Shown here one piece after another: positions 38,774-46,676 of a stretch of DNA of 64,000 nt. The translations under genes and the position numbers were made by a program. Numbering within the stretch: the stretch's first letter is position 1; every line of letters starts with the position of its first letter. The stretch is from NCBI GenBank assembly GCA_021731815.1, contig JAKFWO010000008.1:1-64000 (forward strand), given 5' to 3'. The notes below the pieces were generated by a model. The model was given only the letters and a program-made list of their open reading frames with translations, was not told the DNA's origin and did not search any database. The DNA is from Hyphomonadaceae bacterium (lineage in GTDB: Bacteria > Pseudomonadota > Alphaproteobacteria > Caulobacterales > Aquidulcibacteraceae).

Positions 38774-39408
38774 GAATCGTCGAATTCGAGGCGGGGCAGC
38801 CGGGGATTCATTTTCTCATCCGTGCCATAGCCGATATTGCAGAGGAAATTCGAGCGCCAGTTTTGGGTCTCTTCATTCCCCGCGAAAAAAGCGGCGTCAA
38901 CCCCCGCCCGGTCAAAGCCCGACATCGGGCCACAATCGAGCCCCAATGCGCGCGCCGCCAGCATGAAATAGGCCGCCTGAAGCGTGCCATTGCGCTCGCC
39001 ATGGTCGCGCGCGGTATCGGGACTGGACATCCGGTTTTTCATGTCGGGACTATGGGGAAACAACACGGGAAGCTTGTCGTAAAAAGCGTGATCCACGGCG
39101 AAAATCACCGTCCATGGGGCGGTCATCGTCTTTTCGACATTGCCCGCATTGAGCAAGGGGCGCAGCTTTTCTTTCGCCGCCGGCGTTCCGATGAACACGA
39201 AACGTGCAGGTGAGCAATTGACCGAAGTTGGCCCCATTTTGGCGAGATCATAGGCGGCGCGGATCAGGATTTCCGGAACCGGCTTGTCGCGCCAGGCATA
39301 ACGGGTGCGGGCCGCGCGGAACATCTGGTCGAGCGCAAGGTCGCTCAGCGGGGCCCCAAGGGCCGGGCCGATTTCCGTTCCGAATTCCACATCGCCTGCA
39401 TTGCTCAT
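38758..39408 (-). CDS. RutE-like nitroreductase family flavoprotein
   Basis: A 216-residue FMN-dependent reductase of the nitroreductase superfamily, closest to the malonic semialdehyde reductase RutE/HadB-like group. Evidence: FRAARTRYAWRDKPVPEI at the N-terminus, MGPTSVNCSPARFVFI, and the C-terminal GLDCGPMSGFDRAGVDAAFF with GYGTDEKMNPRLPR. I choose the ATG at 39408 (MSNAGDVEF), with GGGGCAG upstream; an ATG at 39423 would add five residues. No other rut pyrimidine-degradation genes are nearby, so the substrate is open. Confidence 0.85.
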   Translation of the reverse strand: MSNAGDVEFGTEIGPALGAPLSDLALDQMFRAARTRYAWRDKPVPEILIRAAYDLAKMGPTSVNCSPARFVFIGTPAAKEKLRPLLNAGNVEKTMTAPWTVIFAVDHAFYDKLPVLFPHSPDMKNRMSSPDTARDHGERNGTLQAAYFMLAARALGLDCGPMSGFDRAGVDAAFFAGNEETQNWRSNFLCNIGYGTDEKMNPRLPRLEFDDSCRIL

Positions 39409-39529
39409 TTTCTGCCCCGCCATTTTCGAATCATGTCTGAAAACCACCCGCAGGATAGACGACCGGCCAACCTGCGGAAAGGATGGAATCCGGTGTCACC
39501 CACGGATTTCGGCACTTCATACAAAAGAA

Positions 39530-41527
39530 TCAGGCCAGTTCGACCAGGGGATCATCCGCCGCCACCGTCGCCCCCGCCGCCACATGGACTTTTGCCACCA
39601 CGCCATCGCGCTCGGCACGGATGATATTCTGCATCTTCATGGCCTCGACCACCATCAGGCCCTCGCCGGCCTTGACTTCCTGGCCCGGTGCCGCATCGAC
39701 CGACACCACCAGTCCAGGCATGGGCGAGAGCACGATACGCGACAGATCGGGAGCCGCCTTGAGCGGCAGGCGGGCCCGCAAGGCCGCTTCATTGGGCGTC
39801 GCGATGATGACATTCAGGCTCGACCCGGCAATCGCCACCGCCCAGCCGGTGGGCAGCGGTTTCAGGGTCAGCGCAAATTCTTCTCCGTCCAGCGTGGCTT
39901 CCATGAGCAAGCGGCCCGGACGCCACGCACTTTCAAAGGCCTGTTCCTTGCCTGCCTGATCGAAGGTGATCGCGGCGTGTCCGCGGCCCGGGGCCAGATG
40001 CACCCGGACCATGGATGGCATGCCCGCGGCGAGAACGGCCCAGTCGAACACTGCCTTGCTCCCGGCCGAAATCCCCGCAAGGCGCCGTGCCAGCAGGCTG
40101 CGGGCAAAAGCACAGGCGGCAATCGCCTGTTCGGCCGCACGCGGACCAAGCGGGGCCCCCTGAAATCCGTCAGGAAAGGTCGCCTTGATATAGCCGGTCG
40201 TGAATTCGCCGCTCAGAAACCCGGGCTCGCGCATGATGGTCGCGAGAAACGCCCCATTATCGCGAATGCCTTCAATGGCAAAGCGGTCGAGCGCCATGGC
40301 CTGGGTGGCGATCGCTTCCCGCCGGGTCGGGGCATGGGTGACCAGCTTGGCGATCATCGGATCGTAGAAGATCGAAATTTCATCGCCCTCACGCACCCCG
40401 GAATCGAGCCGAACGATTCCCGGCCCGAGCGGACCTTCATGGGGCGGTTCATACCGCTTGAGTCGGCCGATCGAGGGCAGGAAATTGCGGCGCGGATCCT
40501 CGGCATAGAGGCGGCTTTCCACCGCCCAGCCATTGATGGTCACGTCTTTCTGGGCAAAGGACAGTTTCTCGCCGGCGGCGGAACGGATCATCTGCTCCAC
40601 CAGATCGAGGCCGGTAATCATCTCGGTCACCGGATGCTCGACCTGAAGGCGTGTATTCATTTCGAGGAAGTAAAAACTCCGGTCGACCCCGCTGGCCACA
40701 AATTCCACGGTGCCGGCGCTGTCATAATTCACCGACCGCGCCAGAGCCGCCGCCTGTTCGCCCATCGCGGCGCGGGTTTTGGCTTCGAGCAGCGGCGAGG
40801 GCGCTTCCTCGATCACTTTCTGGTTGCGGCGCTGGATCGAGCATTCGCGTTCGCCGAGATAAACCACCGTGCCATGTTTGTCGCCCAGCACCTGGATCTC
40901 GATATGGCGCGGATCGCGGATGAATTTTTCGATGAACACGCGGTCGTCGCCAAAGGCGTTTTTCGCCTCTGCCCGGACGGCGGGGAAGCCTTCCTCGACT
41001 TCGGCCCGGTTTTCCGCGACGCGAATGCCTTTTCCGCCACCACCGGCCGAGGCCTTGATCATCACGGGAAATCCAATCTGTTCGGAGATTTCCAGCGCGC
41101 GCGCAACCGTATCGATTTCGCCGGGAAAGCCCGGCACGGTGGACACTCCCGCAGCGGCCGCCCGCTTTTTGCTTTCGATCTTGTCGCCCATCGCCTCGAT
41201 CGCCGCGGCATTGGGACCTATAAAAACAATGTTCTCCGCAGCAAGCGCACGCGCAAAGGCCGCGTTCTCCGACAGAAAGCCGAAACCGGGATGGATGGCG
41301 TCGGCACCGGCGGCTCTGGCAGCCGCGATGATCTTTTCGATGACCAGATAGGATTGCGCGGCCGGCGAGGGGCCGATCGCAATGGCTTCATCGGCCATTT
41401 CGACCGCGAGGGAATCGGCATCGGCCTCGGAATAGACGATGGCCGTGGAAATCCCGAGGCGGCGCGCGGTCCCGATGATGCGCACGGCGATCTCGCCGCG
41501 ATTGGCGATCAGGATACGGTCAAACAT
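39530..41527 (-). CDS. pccA: Propionyl/acyl-CoA carboxylase alpha subunit
   Basis: Biotin-carrying subunit that carboxylates biotin with ATP and bicarbonate for an acyl-CoA carboxylase. The protein has 665 residues: biotin carboxylase (1-445; KIANRGEIAVR-type start ILIANRGEIAVRI, ATP-grasp KASAGGGGKGIRV, catalytic EMNTRLQVEHPVTE), a BT-like middle domain and a C-terminal biotinyl domain with biotinylated K631 in VVEAMKMQN. Length and the closing domain fit PccA or MccA rather than AccC. The beta subunit is not adjacent. The acyl-CoA dehydrogenase lies 41 bases upstream on the same strand, which suggests branched-chain or propionate catabolism. Confidence 0.9.
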   Translation of the reverse strand: MFDRILIANRGEIAVRIIGTARRLGISTAIVYSEADADSLAVEMADEAIAIGPSPAAQSYLVIEKIIAAARAAGADAIHPGFGFLSENAAFARALAAENIVFIGPNAAAIEAMGDKIESKKRAAAAGVSTVPGFPGEIDTVARALEISEQIGFPVMIKASAGGGGKGIRVAENRAEVEEGFPAVRAEAKNAFGDDRVFIEKFIRDPRHIEIQVLGDKHGTVVYLGERECSIQRRNQKVIEEAPSPLLEAKTRAAMGEQAAALARSVNYDSAGTVEFVASGVDRSFYFLEMNTRLQVEHPVTEMITGLDLVEQMIRSAAGEKLSFAQKDVTINGWAVESRLYAEDPRRNFLPSIGRLKRYEPPHEGPLGPGIVRLDSGVREGDEISIFYDPMIAKLVTHAPTRREAIATQAMALDRFAIEGIRDNGAFLATIMREPGFLSGEFTTGYIKATFPDGFQGAPLGPRAAEQAIAACAFARSLLARRLAGISAGSKAVFDWAVLAAGMPSMVRVHLAPGRGHAAITFDQAGKEQAFESAWRPGRLLMEATLDGEEFALTLKPLPTGWAVAIAGSSLNVIIATPNEAALRARLPLKAAPDLSRIVLSPMPGLVVSVDAAPGQEVKAGEGLMVVEAMKMQNIIRAERDGVVAKVHVAAGATVAADDPLVELA

Positions 41528-41568
41528 GAAGGCTCCTCACACTTCAGGGGAAATCGCGGCACCGGGGC

Positions 41569-43395
41569 TTACCCCGCGAGTTCCGTATAATCGTCCCCGA
41601 ACAAGGTGTCCGCGCCCAGTTTGACAGCCTGTTTGTGGGCGATGGCATAAGGCAGAATCGCGCGGGCATAGATCGCGGCCAATTGGATCCGGCTCTTCCA
41701 ATAGGGCGTCCCCGGCTCCTGGGCCTTGAGCCGGCGCTGGGCGGCCAATGCCCCCTTGGCGAGGTAAAATCCGCCCGTGACATCGCCGGCCAGGGTCAGA
41801 AAAGCGGAGGCACCGGCCAGCGCATCGCGGCGATTGTCCTTCAGGCAGCCGAGGAGAAACAGGCTCGCTTCCTCCAGCGCATCGATTCCGGCGGCGAGGG
41901 CTTCGCCCATATCCCGGATGGCGGGGGTGGAGGCGGCGCGGCAATCCTCGACACCGAGCCGCATCTCGGCGATGAGCCGAGCCATGGGGGCTCCGCCGCC
42001 CATCGGCAGCTTGCGCTCGACGAGATCGATCGCCTGAATGCCGTTGGTTCCCTCATAGATCGGCGTGATGCGCGCATCGCGGTAATATTGCGCTGCCCCG
42101 CCTTCGTCGACAAAGCCGGTTCCGCCATGGATCTGCACGCCCTGCGAGGCGATCTCCACCGCCATGTCCGAGCACCACGCCTTGGCGATCGGCGTCAGCA
42201 ATTCCTCGCGCTCGCGGGCCTCGCGGCGGTCGGTCTCGTCCCGGAGCACCACCGCCATGTCGGCTGCGAGCGCCGTGGCGTAGCAAATGGCGCGTCCGGC
42301 ATTGACCTTCGCCTTCATGACCAGCAAGAGGCGGCGGATATCGGAATGGTCGATGATTGCCGACGGTGCCAGGGCCGCCCCGTCCGCGCGGCCCTGGCGG
42401 CGCTCCTGGGCATAGGAAAAAGCCTTCTGGAATGCGGCTTCGGCCACGGCCACTCCTTGCAACCCGACATTGAGACGGGCTGAGTTCATCATGGTGAACA
42501 TGGCCGCGAGCCCGCGATGCTCGGCCCCGATCAGCCAGCCAATGGCCCCGGGCGGGTCGGCAAAGGCCCCGTCGCCAAAGGCCATGGAACAGGTGGGGGA
42601 AGCATGGATGCCGAGCTTCTTTTCAAGCCCCACACAGCGCAGATCATTGCGCCGCCCCGGATTGCCCGCCGCATCGGGCAGGAATTTCGGGACGAGGAAC
42701 AAGGACACCCCCTTCGACCCCGCCGCCGCCCCGGGCGTTCGGGCGAGCACGAGATGGACGACATTGGCCGCCATGTCATGGTCGCCATAGGTAATGAAAA
42801 TCTTGCTGCCGAACAGGCGGAATGCGCCTTCGCCCTGGCTTCCGTCGGTGACCGGCTCGGCTCTCGTGGTCAGCGCCCCGACATCGGTGCCGGCCTGGGG
42901 CTCGGTCAGATTCATGGCACCCGACCACTCGCCGCTGACCAGCTTCGGGAGATAGAGCGCGCGCTGGGCCCCGGTTCCGTGGCGGTCAATGGCCTCGATC
43001 GCGCCGAGCGTCAGCATTGGGCACAGGCCAAAGCTCATATTGGCAGCGTGGATCATTTCACCGACCGCCAGCGCCGCCGCTTTGGGAAGGCCCTGGCCGC
43101 CGATCGCTTCAGGAAAGCCGAGCCCCAGCCAGCCACCTTCCACCATCTGGGCATAGGCTTCACGAAAGCCCGGCGCGGTCGTCACGCTGTCATTGGCGAG
43201 GGTTGCACCATGGTGATCGCCCACCCGGTTGAGCGGTTCAAGCGCCTCCCCCGTCCAGGTCCCGGCGGCGTCCAGCAGGTCGCCAATGAGATCGGCGGTG
43301 AAATCGGGAAAGGCACCATCGGCCTTGAGGCCCTCGATCCCGGTGACATCCTCGAGCGTAAAACGGATGTCACGGATCGGCGCGCGATAGGTCAT
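41569..43395 (-). CDS. Acyl-CoA dehydrogenase (DmdC-like)
   Basis: A 608-residue FAD-dependent dehydrogenase, long-form type with an N-terminal extension and extra C-terminal domain as in 3-methylmercaptopropionyl-CoA dehydrogenase DmdC and related fatty acyl-CoA dehydrogenases. Motifs: TEPQAGTDVGALTT, the catalytic-base region ITPIYEGTNGIQAIDLVERKL (Glu in YEGTNG), and VQIHGGTGFVDE. Start at 43395 (MTYRAPIRDIRF) matches the family. The same fold serves many acyl substrates, so DmdC chemistry (DMSP breakdown) should not be assumed; no dmd partners are present. Confidence 0.9.
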   Translation of the reverse strand: MTYRAPIRDIRFTLEDVTGIEGLKADGAFPDFTADLIGDLLDAAGTWTGEALEPLNRVGDHHGATLANDSVTTAPGFREAYAQMVEGGWLGLGFPEAIGGQGLPKAAALAVGEMIHAANMSFGLCPMLTLGAIEAIDRHGTGAQRALYLPKLVSGEWSGAMNLTEPQAGTDVGALTTRAEPVTDGSQGEGAFRLFGSKIFITYGDHDMAANVVHLVLARTPGAAAGSKGVSLFLVPKFLPDAAGNPGRRNDLRCVGLEKKLGIHASPTCSMAFGDGAFADPPGAIGWLIGAEHRGLAAMFTMMNSARLNVGLQGVAVAEAAFQKAFSYAQERRQGRADGAALAPSAIIDHSDIRRLLLVMKAKVNAGRAICYATALAADMAVVLRDETDRREAREREELLTPIAKAWCSDMAVEIASQGVQIHGGTGFVDEGGAAQYYRDARITPIYEGTNGIQAIDLVERKLPMGGGAPMARLIAEMRLGVEDCRAASTPAIRDMGEALAAGIDALEEASLFLLGCLKDNRRDALAGASAFLTLAGDVTGGFYLAKGALAAQRRLKAQEPGTPYWKSRIQLAAIYARAILPYAIAHKQAVKLGADTLFGDDYTELAG

Positions 43396-43575
43396 GGATG
43401 GGGCTCCCGTCAGGCGGCGCAAGGGCGAAGCTGCGCGCTATCTATCGCGGCAAACCCGTGCGGAATGCAAGCGTTTCGGCGGTTTGGCGGCAGGCACCGT
43501 TTTCCGCAAGCATCTGTGGAAGCGCGCGCGCCGATATGCGAGACTTGGAGGTCGCAATCCGCATGGGGGCCCCCG

Positions 43576-44349
43576 ATGAACAACACCTTCTTTCAGATGT
43601 CGGGGGTTCTGATGTCGCATCTTCCGAAGTTTCGAAAGCTCTGCCAGCAGCGCGGCGGGCTCTGGCCGGTCCTCGGCCTCGTCCTCACCAGCCTGACCCT
43701 TGGCCCGGTCGCCCCCGCCATGGCACAGGCACAGACTGGAGCACAGACGGGGGCACAGACAGGAGCACAGGTGGAGGCCACGGATTCTGATGCAAAGCCG
43801 GCCAGCATCTCCGGTCAGCCTTCGGGGACCTATGCGCTCGATCCCAAACACGCCACGCTGGTCTGGCGGGTGTTTCATCTCGGCCTGTCGCGCTACACGG
43901 CCCGCTTCAACCGGCTCGAGGCGATTCTGGTCTGGGACGACGGGGATGTCACCAAAGCCCGGGTGAATGCGGTGATCGATCCTGCATCGGTCGACACCGG
44001 CTATCCCGATGCAGCCACACGCGATTTCGACAAGGAACTGGCCACGGAAGGCAAATATTTCAATGCGAAGAAATATCCCTTCATCCGTTTTCAATCGACC
44101 GCGATCGAGAAAACCGGCGACAAAACCGGACGGATGACCGGCGACCTGCAATTCAGGGGCGTGAGCAAGCCGGTCACTTTTGAGGTGACTTTCAATGGCG
44201 GCATCCGCAACATCCTGACCCAGAAACAGAATCTGGGCTTTTCCGCCCGCGCGACGATCCGGAGGTCCGAGTGGGGCATGGATGCGCTGCTGCCTTATGT
44301 TGCCGACGAGGTGGAGATTCTCATCGAAGCCGAGTTCGAAAAGCAGTAA
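43576..44349 (+). CDS. YceI-domain periplasmic protein (1 of 3)
   Basis: A 257-residue exported protein with a Sec signal (GLWPVLGLVLTSLTLGPVAPAMAQ, cleavage near AMA-QA) and one YceI domain, a lipocalin-like barrel that binds isoprenoid quinone-like lipids in studied members. Evidence: GTYALDPKHATLVWRVFHLGLSRYT, then FRGVSKPVTFEVTFNG and ATIRRSEWGMDALLPYVADEVEI. Three QTGA repeats follow the signal, encoded by a 12-bp repeat at 43732-43767. The ATG at 43576 is used; an ATG at 43612 would give a more typical signal length. First of three consecutive YceI genes. Confidence 0.88.
   Translation: MNNTFFQMSGVLMSHLPKFRKLCQQRGGLWPVLGLVLTSLTLGPVAPAMAQAQTGAQTGAQTGAQVEATDSDAKPASISGQPSGTYALDPKHATLVWRVFHLGLSRYTARFNRLEAILVWDDGDVTKARVNAVIDPASVDTGYPDAATRDFDKELATEGKYFNAKKYPFIRFQSTAIEKTGDKTGRMTGDLQFRGVSKPVTFEVTFNGGIRNILTQKQNLGFSARATIRRSEWGMDALLPYVADEVEILIEAEFEKQ
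43732..43767. repeat. 12-bp repeat x3 encoding QTGA
   Basis: Three tandem 12-bp units (CAGACTGGAGCA, CAGACGGGGGCA, CAGACAGGAGCA), in frame just after the signal peptide of the first YceI gene, with a fourth diverged unit (QVEA). Confidence 0.93.
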
Positions 44350-44410
44350 TCGGAAACCGGAATTATGCCCGACAGGCATCGGATGCCCGCTTGACCCAGG
44401 AGAAGACTTT

Positions 44411-45133
44411 ATGACCTCTCATTTCCCCGCCAGAAAACATGTGTCGGCCATTGCGGCCTCGGTTTTGATCCTCGGGCTCGCCGCCTGCGCCCCGACCACC
44501 GCAAAGCCGCCCGAAGCCGCTGCCCCCGCGGAACCGGCCCCCGTGACGCTCGCGCCGATCGAGGCCCCGGCGGGGACCTATGTGGTTGACCCCTATCATG
44601 CGACCGTCGCCTTCCGGGTCAACCATCTCGGCCTGTCGATCTATAATGCCCGCTTCAAGAAATTCGCGGCGGAATTCACCTTTGATCCCGCCAATCCCAC
44701 GGCCGCGGCCATCACGGGGTCGGTCGACACCAGCTCGGTCGAAACCGATTATTCGGGAAACTTCAAGGCCGGCCATCCGGATTCGCCCTACAAGACCTTC
44801 AATGAAGCACTGGTGAAGGACCCGGCCTGGTTCGATGCCACGAAATTCCCGACCATGAGCTTCAAATCCACCGGGCTCACGGTCACCAGCCCCACTGGCG
44901 GTGACATGGCCGGCGAACTGACGCTGAAGGGCGTGACGAAGCCCGTGACCTTCGCCGTGACGCTGGTCGGGGCCAAGGCCGAGCACCCCTTTGTCAAGGG
45001 CGTCGGTGCCATGGGCTTTACCGCGCGCACCACGATCAAGCGCAGCGAATGGGGCCTCGACAATTCCGTTCCCTTTGTCGCCGATGACGTGGAAATCATC
45101 TTTGACGGCGAATTCACCCAGAAGAAGGCATAA
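44411..45133 (+). CDS. YceI-domain lipoprotein (2 of 3)
   Basis: A 240-residue lipoprotein version of YceI: signal ending LILGLAAC (lipobox LAAC), a Pro/Ala/Glu-rich spacer (about residues 25-50), then the YceI barrel (GTYVVDPYHATVAFRVNHLGLSIYN; LKGVTKPVTFAVTLVG; TTIKRSEWGLDNSVPFVADDVEI). AGGAGAAG lies 6 bases before the ATG at 44411. It follows the first YceI gene by 61 bases. The stop TAA lies in a short tandem repeat (45123-45146). Confidence 0.9.
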   Translation: MTSHFPARKHVSAIAASVLILGLAACAPTTAKPPEAAAPAEPAPVTLAPIEAPAGTYVVDPYHATVAFRVNHLGLSIYNARFKKFAAEFTFDPANPTAAAITGSVDTSSVETDYSGNFKAGHPDSPYKTFNEALVKDPAWFDATKFPTMSFKSTGLTVTSPTGGDMAGELTLKGVTKPVTFAVTLVGAKAEHPFVKGVGAMGFTARTTIKRSEWGLDNSVPFVADDVEIIFDGEFTQKKA

Positions 45134-45146
45134 CCAGAAGGCGTAA
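45123..45146. repeat. Tandem repeat spanning the second YceI stop
   Basis: AGAAGGCATAA (45123-45133) and AGAAGGCGTAA (45136-45146) repeat with period 13; each ends in TAA, and the first TAA is the gene's stop. Confidence 0.85.
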
Positions 45147-45195
45147 GTCGATCTTGCGTTTCCTGCTTCCAAAGCAGTGCGTTTGAGCCTGTCGA

Positions 45196-45228
45196 GGGCA
45201 GATCCGTCCAACCGGACGTGATCTGCCC
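45196..45228 (+). other. Strong hairpin between YceI genes
   Basis: GGGCAGATC-CGTCC (45196-45209) pairs with GGACG-T-GATCTGCCC (45214-45228): 14 paired bases, a single bulged T and a 4-base loop. No U-run follows, so it is not a standard terminator. It lies between the second YceI gene and the b561-YceI fusion gene, where it could stabilise or process the mRNA. Confidence 0.75.
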
Positions 45229-45296
45229 TGCGACGCCCGGTTCGCGGAAGCGGGTGTGGTGCAACCGTCTCACAACAAGTGTCCCGGAGGTCCTGG

Positions 45297-46676
45297 ATGA
45301 GTGCCACCCTTTCTCCGGCCGCCGGCCACGACCGGCCCCCGCATCGCTATTCCATGGTCGCGATCGTGCTCCATTGGGCGATCGCGCTGGCCATTATCGG
45401 CATGATCTTTCTCGGCTGGTGGATGGGCGACGCCCTGCACGCCAAGGGGGCGTCAGAATCCGTGCGGCGTCTGGGCTATGACCTCACGCAAACCCATAAA
45501 TCCATCGGCATCACCATTCTGGCGCTGAGCCTCGCCCGCATCGTCTGGCGATTGTCTCATCCCGCACCACCACTGCCTGCCGAAATGGACAAGACTTCAC
45601 GCCTGATTGCGAGGGCCGTGCATGGCGCGTTCTATATACTGATGCTGGCCATGCCGCTCTCAGGCTGGGCGCTGGTTTCGGCCTCGAAAACCGGCGTCGC
45701 TACAACCTGGTTCAAGCTCTTCAACATCCCGCATTGGCCTTTGCCCAGGACCGACGCGCTCAGCGACATCCTCGAAAATGTGCATGGAAAAGCGGCCTGG
45801 GTGATGCTCGCTCTGCTGGCGCTGCATGTAGCGGCGGCGCTCATGCATCATTACCGGCTGCGGGATGCGGTGATCCCGCAAATGGCCCCGTGGACGAAAC
45901 CGGTAGAGCGGGCGCGACCCGATCTGATCGCCGGCTGGGCCATGCCGCGCTGGTCGACATTGATCCTGTCCGCGCTCGGTCTGTCGGGCGCGCTGGCGCT
46001 GTGGCTGTGGACGCAATCGCTGCTTGCTCCGCTGCCGCCGTCACTGATTGCGGCGGCCGCCGCAACGGAACTGGCGGCCTCGGAACCGGCGGCGGATGCG
46101 CCGATTGCAGCCGGGCCTGCCCCGACCCAACCTTCGACGACGGGGCCGGCACCGGCACAGGAACCATCGACCATTCCTGTCCATTGGGTCATGGATCCAG
46201 CGCGCTCGGAATTGCGCTTTTCGGGCACCCATATCGGCCGGCCCTTCAGCGGCACATTCGGCAAATTCACGGCCGACATTGAATTCGCACCCGGAGCGCT
46301 CGCGCAATCCCGGGCGTCGATCGTGGTGGATCTCGCCTCCGCCAAAATCGGCAATCCCGAATATGACAGCGCGCTACCGGGCTCTGACTGGCTCGACAGC
46401 GCCAAAATCGCCGAAGCCCGCTTCGAGACCACGCGCTTTACCGCAACGGGGTCTGGCGGCTTCATTGCCGAGGGTCGTCTGACCCTGCGGGGCGTCACGA
46501 AGGATGTGCGCCTGCCTTTCACGCTCGGTTTTTCGGCCGACGAAGCGGTGATGGAAGGCAGGGTCGTCCTCAACCGGCTCGATTTCGCGATCGGCGCGCG
46601 CAATGATCGCAGCGCCGAATGGGTCAGCCGCGACATCAAGCTGGCCATCCGGCTCACCGCGAGGAAAGCGGGCTGA
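45297..46676 (+). CDS. Cytochrome b561-YceI fusion protein (3 of 3)
   Basis: A 459-residue membrane fusion. Residues ~12-205 form a di-heme cytochrome b561-type domain: four helices with His ligands in AIVLHWAIALAII, LTQTHKSIGITIL, ARAVHGAFYILML and LALHVAAALMHH. A fifth helix (~220-245) leads to a Pro/Ala/Thr-rich linker (ASEPAADAPIAAGPAPTQPS), then a periplasmic YceI domain (VHWVMDPARSELRFSGTHIG to SRDIKLAIRLTA). CGGAGG precedes the ATG at 45297. A membrane cytochrome tied to a quinone/lipid-binding barrel suggests electron transfer with periplasmic quinone-like ligands; this is inference. Confidence 0.92.
   Translation: MSATLSPAAGHDRPPHRYSMVAIVLHWAIALAIIGMIFLGWWMGDALHAKGASESVRRLGYDLTQTHKSIGITILALSLARIVWRLSHPAPPLPAEMDKTSRLIARAVHGAFYILMLAMPLSGWALVSASKTGVATTWFKLFNIPHWPLPRTDALSDILENVHGKAAWVMLALLALHVAAALMHHYRLRDAVIPQMAPWTKPVERARPDLIAGWAMPRWSTLILSALGLSGALALWLWTQSLLAPLPPSLIAAAAATELAASEPAADAPIAAGPAPTQPSTTGPAPAQEPSTIPVHWVMDPARSELRFSGTHIGRPFSGTFGKFTADIEFAPGALAQSRASIVVDLASAKIGNPEYDSALPGSDWLDSAKIAEARFETTRFTATGSGGFIAEGRLTLRGVTKDVRLPFTLGFSADEAVMEGRVVLNRLDFAIGARNDRSAEWVSRDIKLAIRLTARKAG

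Follow-up and report, generated by a model that had tools for sequence, protein, structure and literature searches.

Naguib et al. (2022; PMC9113575) described in Burkholderia cenocepacia a system formed by a cytochrome b561 (lcoA) and the YceI lipocalins bcnA and bcnB, and framed as an open question what stops lipid peroxidation in the outer membrane, which lies at a distance from the respiratory chain. According to the sections of that paper covered here, the system is induced by antibiotics or paraquat, mutants of bcnA, lcoA and psrA have raised lipid peroxidation, and LcoA was proposed to re-reduce a quinone bound to BcnA, thereby quenching lipid peroxyl radicals. The same sections report that most alphaproteobacteria have lcoA and bcnA as a single fused gene, with a linker replacing the signal peptide. 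Here we analyse a locus in a 64,000-nucleotide stretch of a Hyphomonadaceae bacterium genome (hereafter the window; Aquidulcibacteraceae, positions 1 to 64,000 of contig JAKFWO010000008.1, assembly GCA_021731815.1), where three adjacent genes, all on the + strand, encode two YceI proteins (YceI-1 and YceI-2) and a cytochrome b561 fused to a third YceI barrel. We consider it probable that this module is the alphaproteobacterial form of LcoA-BcnA-BcnB and protects the envelope from lipid peroxidation. It resembles the Burkholderia system in that a b561 is linked to a BcnA-type barrel (in a fusion with a linker) and a further barrel is adjacent. It differs in having two upstream free barrels that resemble those at the bcnB position, and the locus adds some anatomy, namely a fifth helix in the fusion, a predicted lipoprotein partner and a divergent acyl-CoA dehydrogenase.

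A sequence-only reading of this stretch had proposed three consecutive YceI genes, the last fused to b561, and this is borne out by the Pfam matches. All three proteins belong to the YceI family (PF04264), with E values of 2e-35 (YceI-1), 5.4e-38 (YceI-2) and 5.5e-30 (fusion), or 122.8, 131.1 and 105.2 bits against a curated cut-off of 23.7. The fusion also matches Ni_hydr_CYTB (E = 3e-32), and the NCBIfam matches (E. coli YceI, b561 and hydrogenase b subunit) are all below the family cut-offs. A profile search of the whole genome (2.53 Mb, 48 contigs) identified three YceI matches, all in the module, and one b561 match (PF01292), which is the N-terminal half of the third protein. Because the only three YceI domains and the only b561 of the genome sit together, the clustering is not due to chance.

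The same reading placed the three barrels in three compartments. A signal peptide, a lipobox and a b561 tether were identified, and the compartments stay predictions, with the signal peptide and lipobox calls made by pattern or eye. YceI-1 (43576-44349) has a signal peptide, for which we place the cleavage by eye between APAMA and QA, a short repeat-rich linker and a barrel (43831-44337), and is predicted to be soluble in the periplasm. A short in-frame tandem repeat, approximately QTGA three to four times, lies directly after the signal peptide (43730-43771). YceI-2 (44411-45133) is a predicted lipoprotein, with a lipobox (LAAC, Cys at residue 26, codon 44486-44488) after a hydrophobic stretch, a Pro/Ala linker and a barrel (44579-45115). 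In E. coli, the residue after the Cys (the Asp rule) determines the sorting of lipoproteins to the outer membrane. In YceI-2 this residue is Ala, not Asp; the rule, derived from E. coli, need not apply to this bacterium. The fusion gene (45297-46676) starts with an ATG behind GGAG at 45297, with an alternative in-frame GTG at 45279.

For comparison we used 60 regions of 56 genomes of relatives, chosen among the matches listed (G058, with one YceI match, and three genomes with no match are excluded), and 80 named loci, which are the best 80 of 574 relatives. Of these 140 loci, 130 have a b561 and 10 are lone YceI loci; near-copies among them (e.g., L076/L134 and L080/L132) make all counts non-independent.

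The YceI partner of the b561 is BcnA-type by sequence, fold and tree grouping. The tethered barrel (46185-46661) is nearest to BcnA (5IXH, 2.3e-17 by sequence), and BcnA is also the top Foldseek match of a structure model of the fusion (template modelling score, TM, of 0.93 on the target). The two free barrels give better scores with BcnB (5IXG) than with BcnA, and their best ones with 7BWL and 1Y0G; their nearest solved relatives are PA0423 and E. coli YceI. A tree of 123 YceI domains (from the 60 regions of relatives and the window) has a branch with 100/100 support that parts 27/27 fused barrels and 22/22 barrels downstream of a separate b561 from 63/63 upstream barrels; its bootstrap had not converged, and the program flagged long branches meeting between the groups (51 rows with L079). 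Two lone barrels fall on the fused side, and nine lone or opposite-strand ones on the upstream side. A quick tree of 70 domains, from the window, 13 loci of relatives and 17 named loci, all picked by hand and with the B. cenocepacia genes absent, places 8/8 betaproteobacterial barrels at the bcnA position in the fused group and 9/9 barrels at later positions in the upstream group. By this grouping, the window would hold one BcnA-type barrel and two BcnB-type barrels, both of the latter upstream, as the scores also indicate.

Other systems link YceI-like domains to electron transfer proteins. In E. coli, yceJ (b1057), which encodes a b561, is directly followed by yceI (b1056), but the two are not fused, and E. 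coli YceI falls on the free-barrel side of the 70-domain tree, on a long branch, although it lies behind yceJ. YceI-like domains are also known from Cbp2D and Cbp2E of Cellvibrio japonicus and as the X158 domain of Saccharophagus (2X32 and 2X34, with ubiquinone-8 in one of the two structures), and in Cbp2D the domain is joined to electron-transfer domains; the partners, as far as the source was covered, are c-type cytochrome domains (Cbp2D) and a carbohydrate-binding module rather than a b561 (PMC8981238).

The fused state requires eight changes on the 123-domain tree, at least two of them forced by well-supported branches. In L034, which pairs most closely with the window in this tree (support 80/87), the b561 and the BcnA-type barrel are encoded by separate genes (L034 4435-5741) with a 4-base overlap. 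Its barrel begins with a lipobox-like sequence and there is no fifth helix; the lipobox-like start is possibly another way of attaching the barrel to a membrane. In a different locus (L107 9241-11168), three further YceI genes stand in a row on the other strand, ~3 kb from a b561-YceI fusion.

The b561 part of the fusion was read as a four-helix protein. The four b561 helices are present (45345-45890, from the profile match and an alignment with E. coli CybB), but an additional hydrophobic helix that precedes the Pro/Ala linker had been overlooked. An AlphaFold2 model built from 27 aligned fusions (mean predicted local distance difference test score, pLDDT, of 82.5; predicted TM score, pTM, of 0.65) has four long b561 helices, a helix at residues 218-243 (45948-46025; pLDDT ~70), a poorly defined stretch at residues 249-279 (pLDDT <50), and then the barrel. 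A b561 of just four helices should leave the barrel on the cytoplasmic side; the fifth helix, recognised by hydropathy and in the model, would bring the chain to the periplasm. A fifth hydrophobic helix occurs in 84/84 fusions (26 from the regions of relatives, 57 from the 80 named loci, and the window), with a mean hydropathy of at least 1.59 over 19 residues. Separate b561 proteins (n = 47) have only 0-19 residues beyond the domain, which leaves no room for such a helix. In 27 fusions there are 1-4 Lys/Arg residues between the b561 domain and helix 5 and 0-2 between the helix and the barrel, a distribution that fits a periplasmic barrel. Helix 5 would then replace, in function, the signal peptide of an unfused barrel. 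The sections of PMC9113575 covered make no mention of this helix, and no literature search aimed at it was made.

The Pro/Ala-rich linker that follows helix 5 in the window (residues 244-294, 46026-46178) is ~50 residues long and had been suggested to provide reach. Across the 84 fusions, linker length is not conserved (15-77 residues, median 44.5), and we find no support for that suggestion; a linker that reaches to the outer membrane is rejected as a general feature on the same grounds.

The sequence-only reading would have failed had the histidine ligands of the b561 part varied; they are conserved. His26, His67, His163 and His177 of the fusion align with His13, His45, His137 and His151 of CybB, the first three of which we take to be heme ligands, and His109 and His184 align with the CybB quinone-site residues His87 and His158. 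For CybB, the covered parts of the literature describe the quinone site and assign H151 to heme 1 as a ligand (PMC11869295). Among 131 b561 proteins (84 fused and 47 separate, the separate ones including L160 and L173, for which the stretch examined contains no YceI), H13 is kept in 130, with one gap, H45, H137 and H151 in 131 each, and the quinone-site residues H87 and H158 in 130 each. The b561 part also matches superoxide oxidase CybB (5OC0) by sequence, and by fold in a Foldseek search with the fusion model (TM 0.84 on the target). The window protein thus has all four heme-ligand positions, as in LcoA-BcnA, and the four-helix, di-heme bundle with quinone-site histidines of CybB.

The order of the barrels recurs across loci. 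The barrel next upstream of the b561 carries a lipobox in 43/57 fused loci and in 10/32 unfused loci, and the barrel downstream of a separate b561 in 5/43; these counts include near-copies, omit barrels whose domain starts before residue 20, and leave aside one downstream YceI of a fused locus (lipobox in 1/1). In fused loci with two upstream barrels (n = 21, including the window), the nearer one has a lipobox in 21/21 and the farther one lacks it in 14/21. The predicted three-place layout is therefore recurrent and not peculiar to this genome. A lipoprotein barrel beside the fusion is not mentioned in the covered text of PMC9113575, with figure S1 and the supplements lying outside that text.

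We propose the following mechanism, in which the ligand, the direction of electron flow and the location of the module are inferred. The b561 part would span the inner membrane, with helix 5 holding the BcnA-type barrel at the periplasmic face. Ubiquinol would give up its electrons at the conserved quinone site, close to the cytoplasmic side; these would cross via the two b hemes to the periplasmic side, where a quinone-like lipid bound in the tethered barrel may accept them. Of the two BcnB-type barrels, one would be soluble in the periplasm and the other lipid-anchored, probably at the outer membrane; both would carry or hold such lipids outward, and the reduced ligand would quench peroxyl radicals further out. 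A link to quinones, suggested by the sequence-only reading, is plausible and has already been proposed in print, both for LcoA/BcnA and through the binding of ubiquinone-8 by a Neisseria YceI protein (cited in PMC9113575 and PMC5350466). Its main idea is indeed already published in closely related form, as far as the covered text of PMC9113575 goes. By analogy with the published system, the role would be defence against lipid peroxyl radicals and not a quinone relay between the membranes. With a single b561 match and three YceI matches in the genome, this natural fusion of a b561 and a BcnA-type barrel offers simple material for testing the reduction of a barrel-bound quinone by b561, and could show whether the lipid-anchored barrel takes over the quinone.

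Several points weigh against the assignment to LcoA-BcnA-BcnB. The part given to the free barrels is the weakest, because deletion of bcnB in B. cenocepacia made no difference to peroxidation, which argues against a leading role of this barrel in that species (PMC9113575). The published names also fit the present groups imperfectly: the sections of the same paper covered term Pseudomonas PA0423 and the E. coli genes bcnA orthologs, yet the free barrels find their closest solved matches among these, and E. coli YceI groups with the free barrels. In the three unfused loci that have two upstream barrels, only the farther barrel carries the lipobox (3/3). Co-transcription is less sure than in relatives, because the gap before the fusion gene is ~160 bases with a strong hairpin (at most 57 bases in 47/59 loci of relatives). 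In addition, electron flow in CybB is described as opposite, from the periplasm to the quinone (PMC11869295, in part).

This last point leads to an alternative in which the fusion works in the CybB direction, with ubiquinone receiving electrons from an oxidisable species in the periplasm, either superoxide or a reduced lipid bound in the barrel. The shared fold and the retention of heme and quinone-site histidines are compatible with it. CybB, however, has a periplasmic superoxide antenna formed by R30, R35, R38, R108 and K134, and R30, R108 and K134 are not kept in the window, which also has the extra helix and barrel; R35 and R38 sit in a poorly aligning loop, where two alignments give different residues. 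Arg is absent at column 30 in 131/131 b561 proteins and at column 108 among the letters shown (128/131), and a pairwise alignment with CybB puts a Lys at position 30 of the window protein. This loss is not specific to the group, as b561 proteins encoded elsewhere in the relatives also lack R30 (6/7) and R108 (none of 7 has it); this control comprised 16 proteins, of which the profile missed 9, and their neighbourhoods were checked to ~300 bases only. The loss of the antenna says that the protein is presumably not a CybB-type enzyme, without indicating what work it does. Identity with a CybB-type superoxide oxidase was set aside on this basis, and we regard the CybB direction as unlikely.

A second alternative, which we also find improbable, is that the barrels are non-redox scavengers or carriers of lipids and antibiotics, and that the b561 works separately and is merely co-located by the fusion. 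BcnA is reported to bind antibiotics and hydrophobic compounds (PMC9113575; PMC5350466), and isoprenoids in other YceI structures, including octaprenyl compounds in crystals, may be artefacts (PMC5350466), a point that also counts against the redox role proposed above; both sources were covered in part. However, one barrel type is repeatedly fused or tightly linked to b561, and bcnA and lcoA mutants share their published phenotype, according to the sections of PMC9113575 covered.

Divergent from the module is a gene for a FadE-type acyl-CoA dehydrogenase (41569-43422, - strand), whose nearest solved structures include 8PNS, 8PNG and 6IJC. Of six neighbours tested, it alone recurs: MnmA (0), biotin carboxylase (1), a CaiB-type protein (0), a CoA-transferase (1) and YbaB (0) are each found in at most 1/140 loci, many of which span only ~4-5 kb per side or less, and these five were rejected as parts of the system. 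A relative of the dehydrogenase lies beside the module in 61/130 loci with b561 (40/60 regions of relatives and 21/80 named loci) and in 0/10 lone YceI loci. It is divergent in 60 of the 61, at 22-338 bases from the first module open reading frame (ORF) in 56 and overlapping it in 4 (ORFs as cut). The named loci with the dehydrogenase are from Caulobacter, Asticcacaulis, Phenylobacterium, Hyphomonas, Henriciella, Oceanicaulis and assemblies lacking a genus name; it was not found at the Rhizobium, Agrobacterium, Brevundimonas, sphingomonad and betaproteobacterial loci fetched. Among the loci that combine the fusion with the divergent dehydrogenase is that of a Caulobacter vibrioides strain (L117). 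The closest homologue of the window dehydrogenase (50-60%) is the module-side copy in 13/20 relatives. In three others (G005, G040 and G044) the best homologue is away from the module, two (G007 and G011) have copies of only ~43%, and two (G038 and G039) have no YceI match. In G038 (G038:C1:230260-232649, part in L184), the dehydrogenase gene is divergent from that of a b561, ~110 bases apart.

The upstream region shared by the dehydrogenase and YceI-1 genes (43423-43575) could hold a common operator. Scanning for spaced triplet pairs in 50 of the 61 regions, kept as non-redundant, neither established nor excluded one. The top pair was ATG-N7-TCC (14/50, z 8.8), CCT-N13-GCC (16/50, z 7.1) also scored, and some pairs resemble a start codon plus ribosome site. 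A palindrome, ATA-N5-TAT (11/50, z 7.3; shuffle maxima 5.2-6.8), was dropped; 9 of its 11 occurrences sit 15-22 bases from the dehydrogenase end. Literature searches, limited to titles and abstracts, found none on the pairing of YceI or b561 with an acyl-CoA dehydrogenase, and the divergent gene is unmentioned in the text of PMC9113575 covered, which did not extend to figure S1 and the supplements. The genome contains an electron transfer flavoprotein (ETF)-quinone oxidoreductase family match, which we count in favour of LcoA-BcnA-BcnB. The recurring dehydrogenase is a lead on the regulation of the module and the lipids involved.

It is very unlikely that the module, together with the dehydrogenase, belongs to fatty-acid breakdown and processes acyl or isoprenoid lipids that enter via the envelope: the divergent arrangement in 60/61 loci, the presence of the dehydrogenase gene beside a b561 in G038, a genome without a YceI match, and the lack of recurrence of the five other neighbours favour it, but the gene was not found at the fetched loci of Rhizobium and the other groups named with it above, the best homologue is away from the module in three relatives, and a shared operator is not established.

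Returning to LcoA-BcnA-BcnB, a speculative extension, which we think rather unlikely to hold in full, is a staged carrier. The BcnA-type barrel held by helix 5 would be charged by the b561 and would pass quinol or a reduced lipid to the soluble and then to the outer-membrane-anchored BcnB-type barrel. In Caulobacter-like bacteria the module would be controlled together with the fatty-acid dehydrogenase, whose electrons would also go to ubiquinone, such that the breakdown of damaged acyl chains would pay for the protection of the outer membrane.

The unusually long gap between the YceI-2 and fusion genes contains a near-perfect stem-loop (45196-45228, + strand; 14 + 15 bases, loop of 4), and the folding energy computed for 45130-45300 is -77.4 kcal/mol (z = -4.3). 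A scan for terminators listed none with a T-run in this gap. No second copy of the hairpin was found in the genome, and the possibility that it is a repeated element was rejected for that reason. Perhaps the stem-loop sets the relative amounts of the proteins. Hairpins also occur in the long gaps of Rhizobium, Agrobacterium and Brevundimonas loci (not compared with shuffled sequences).

Two long open frames on the + strand (39305-41590 and 42517-44349) run antisense to the biotin carboxylase and dehydrogenase genes, the second extending into YceI-1. They are probably a by-product of high G+C content and not genes.

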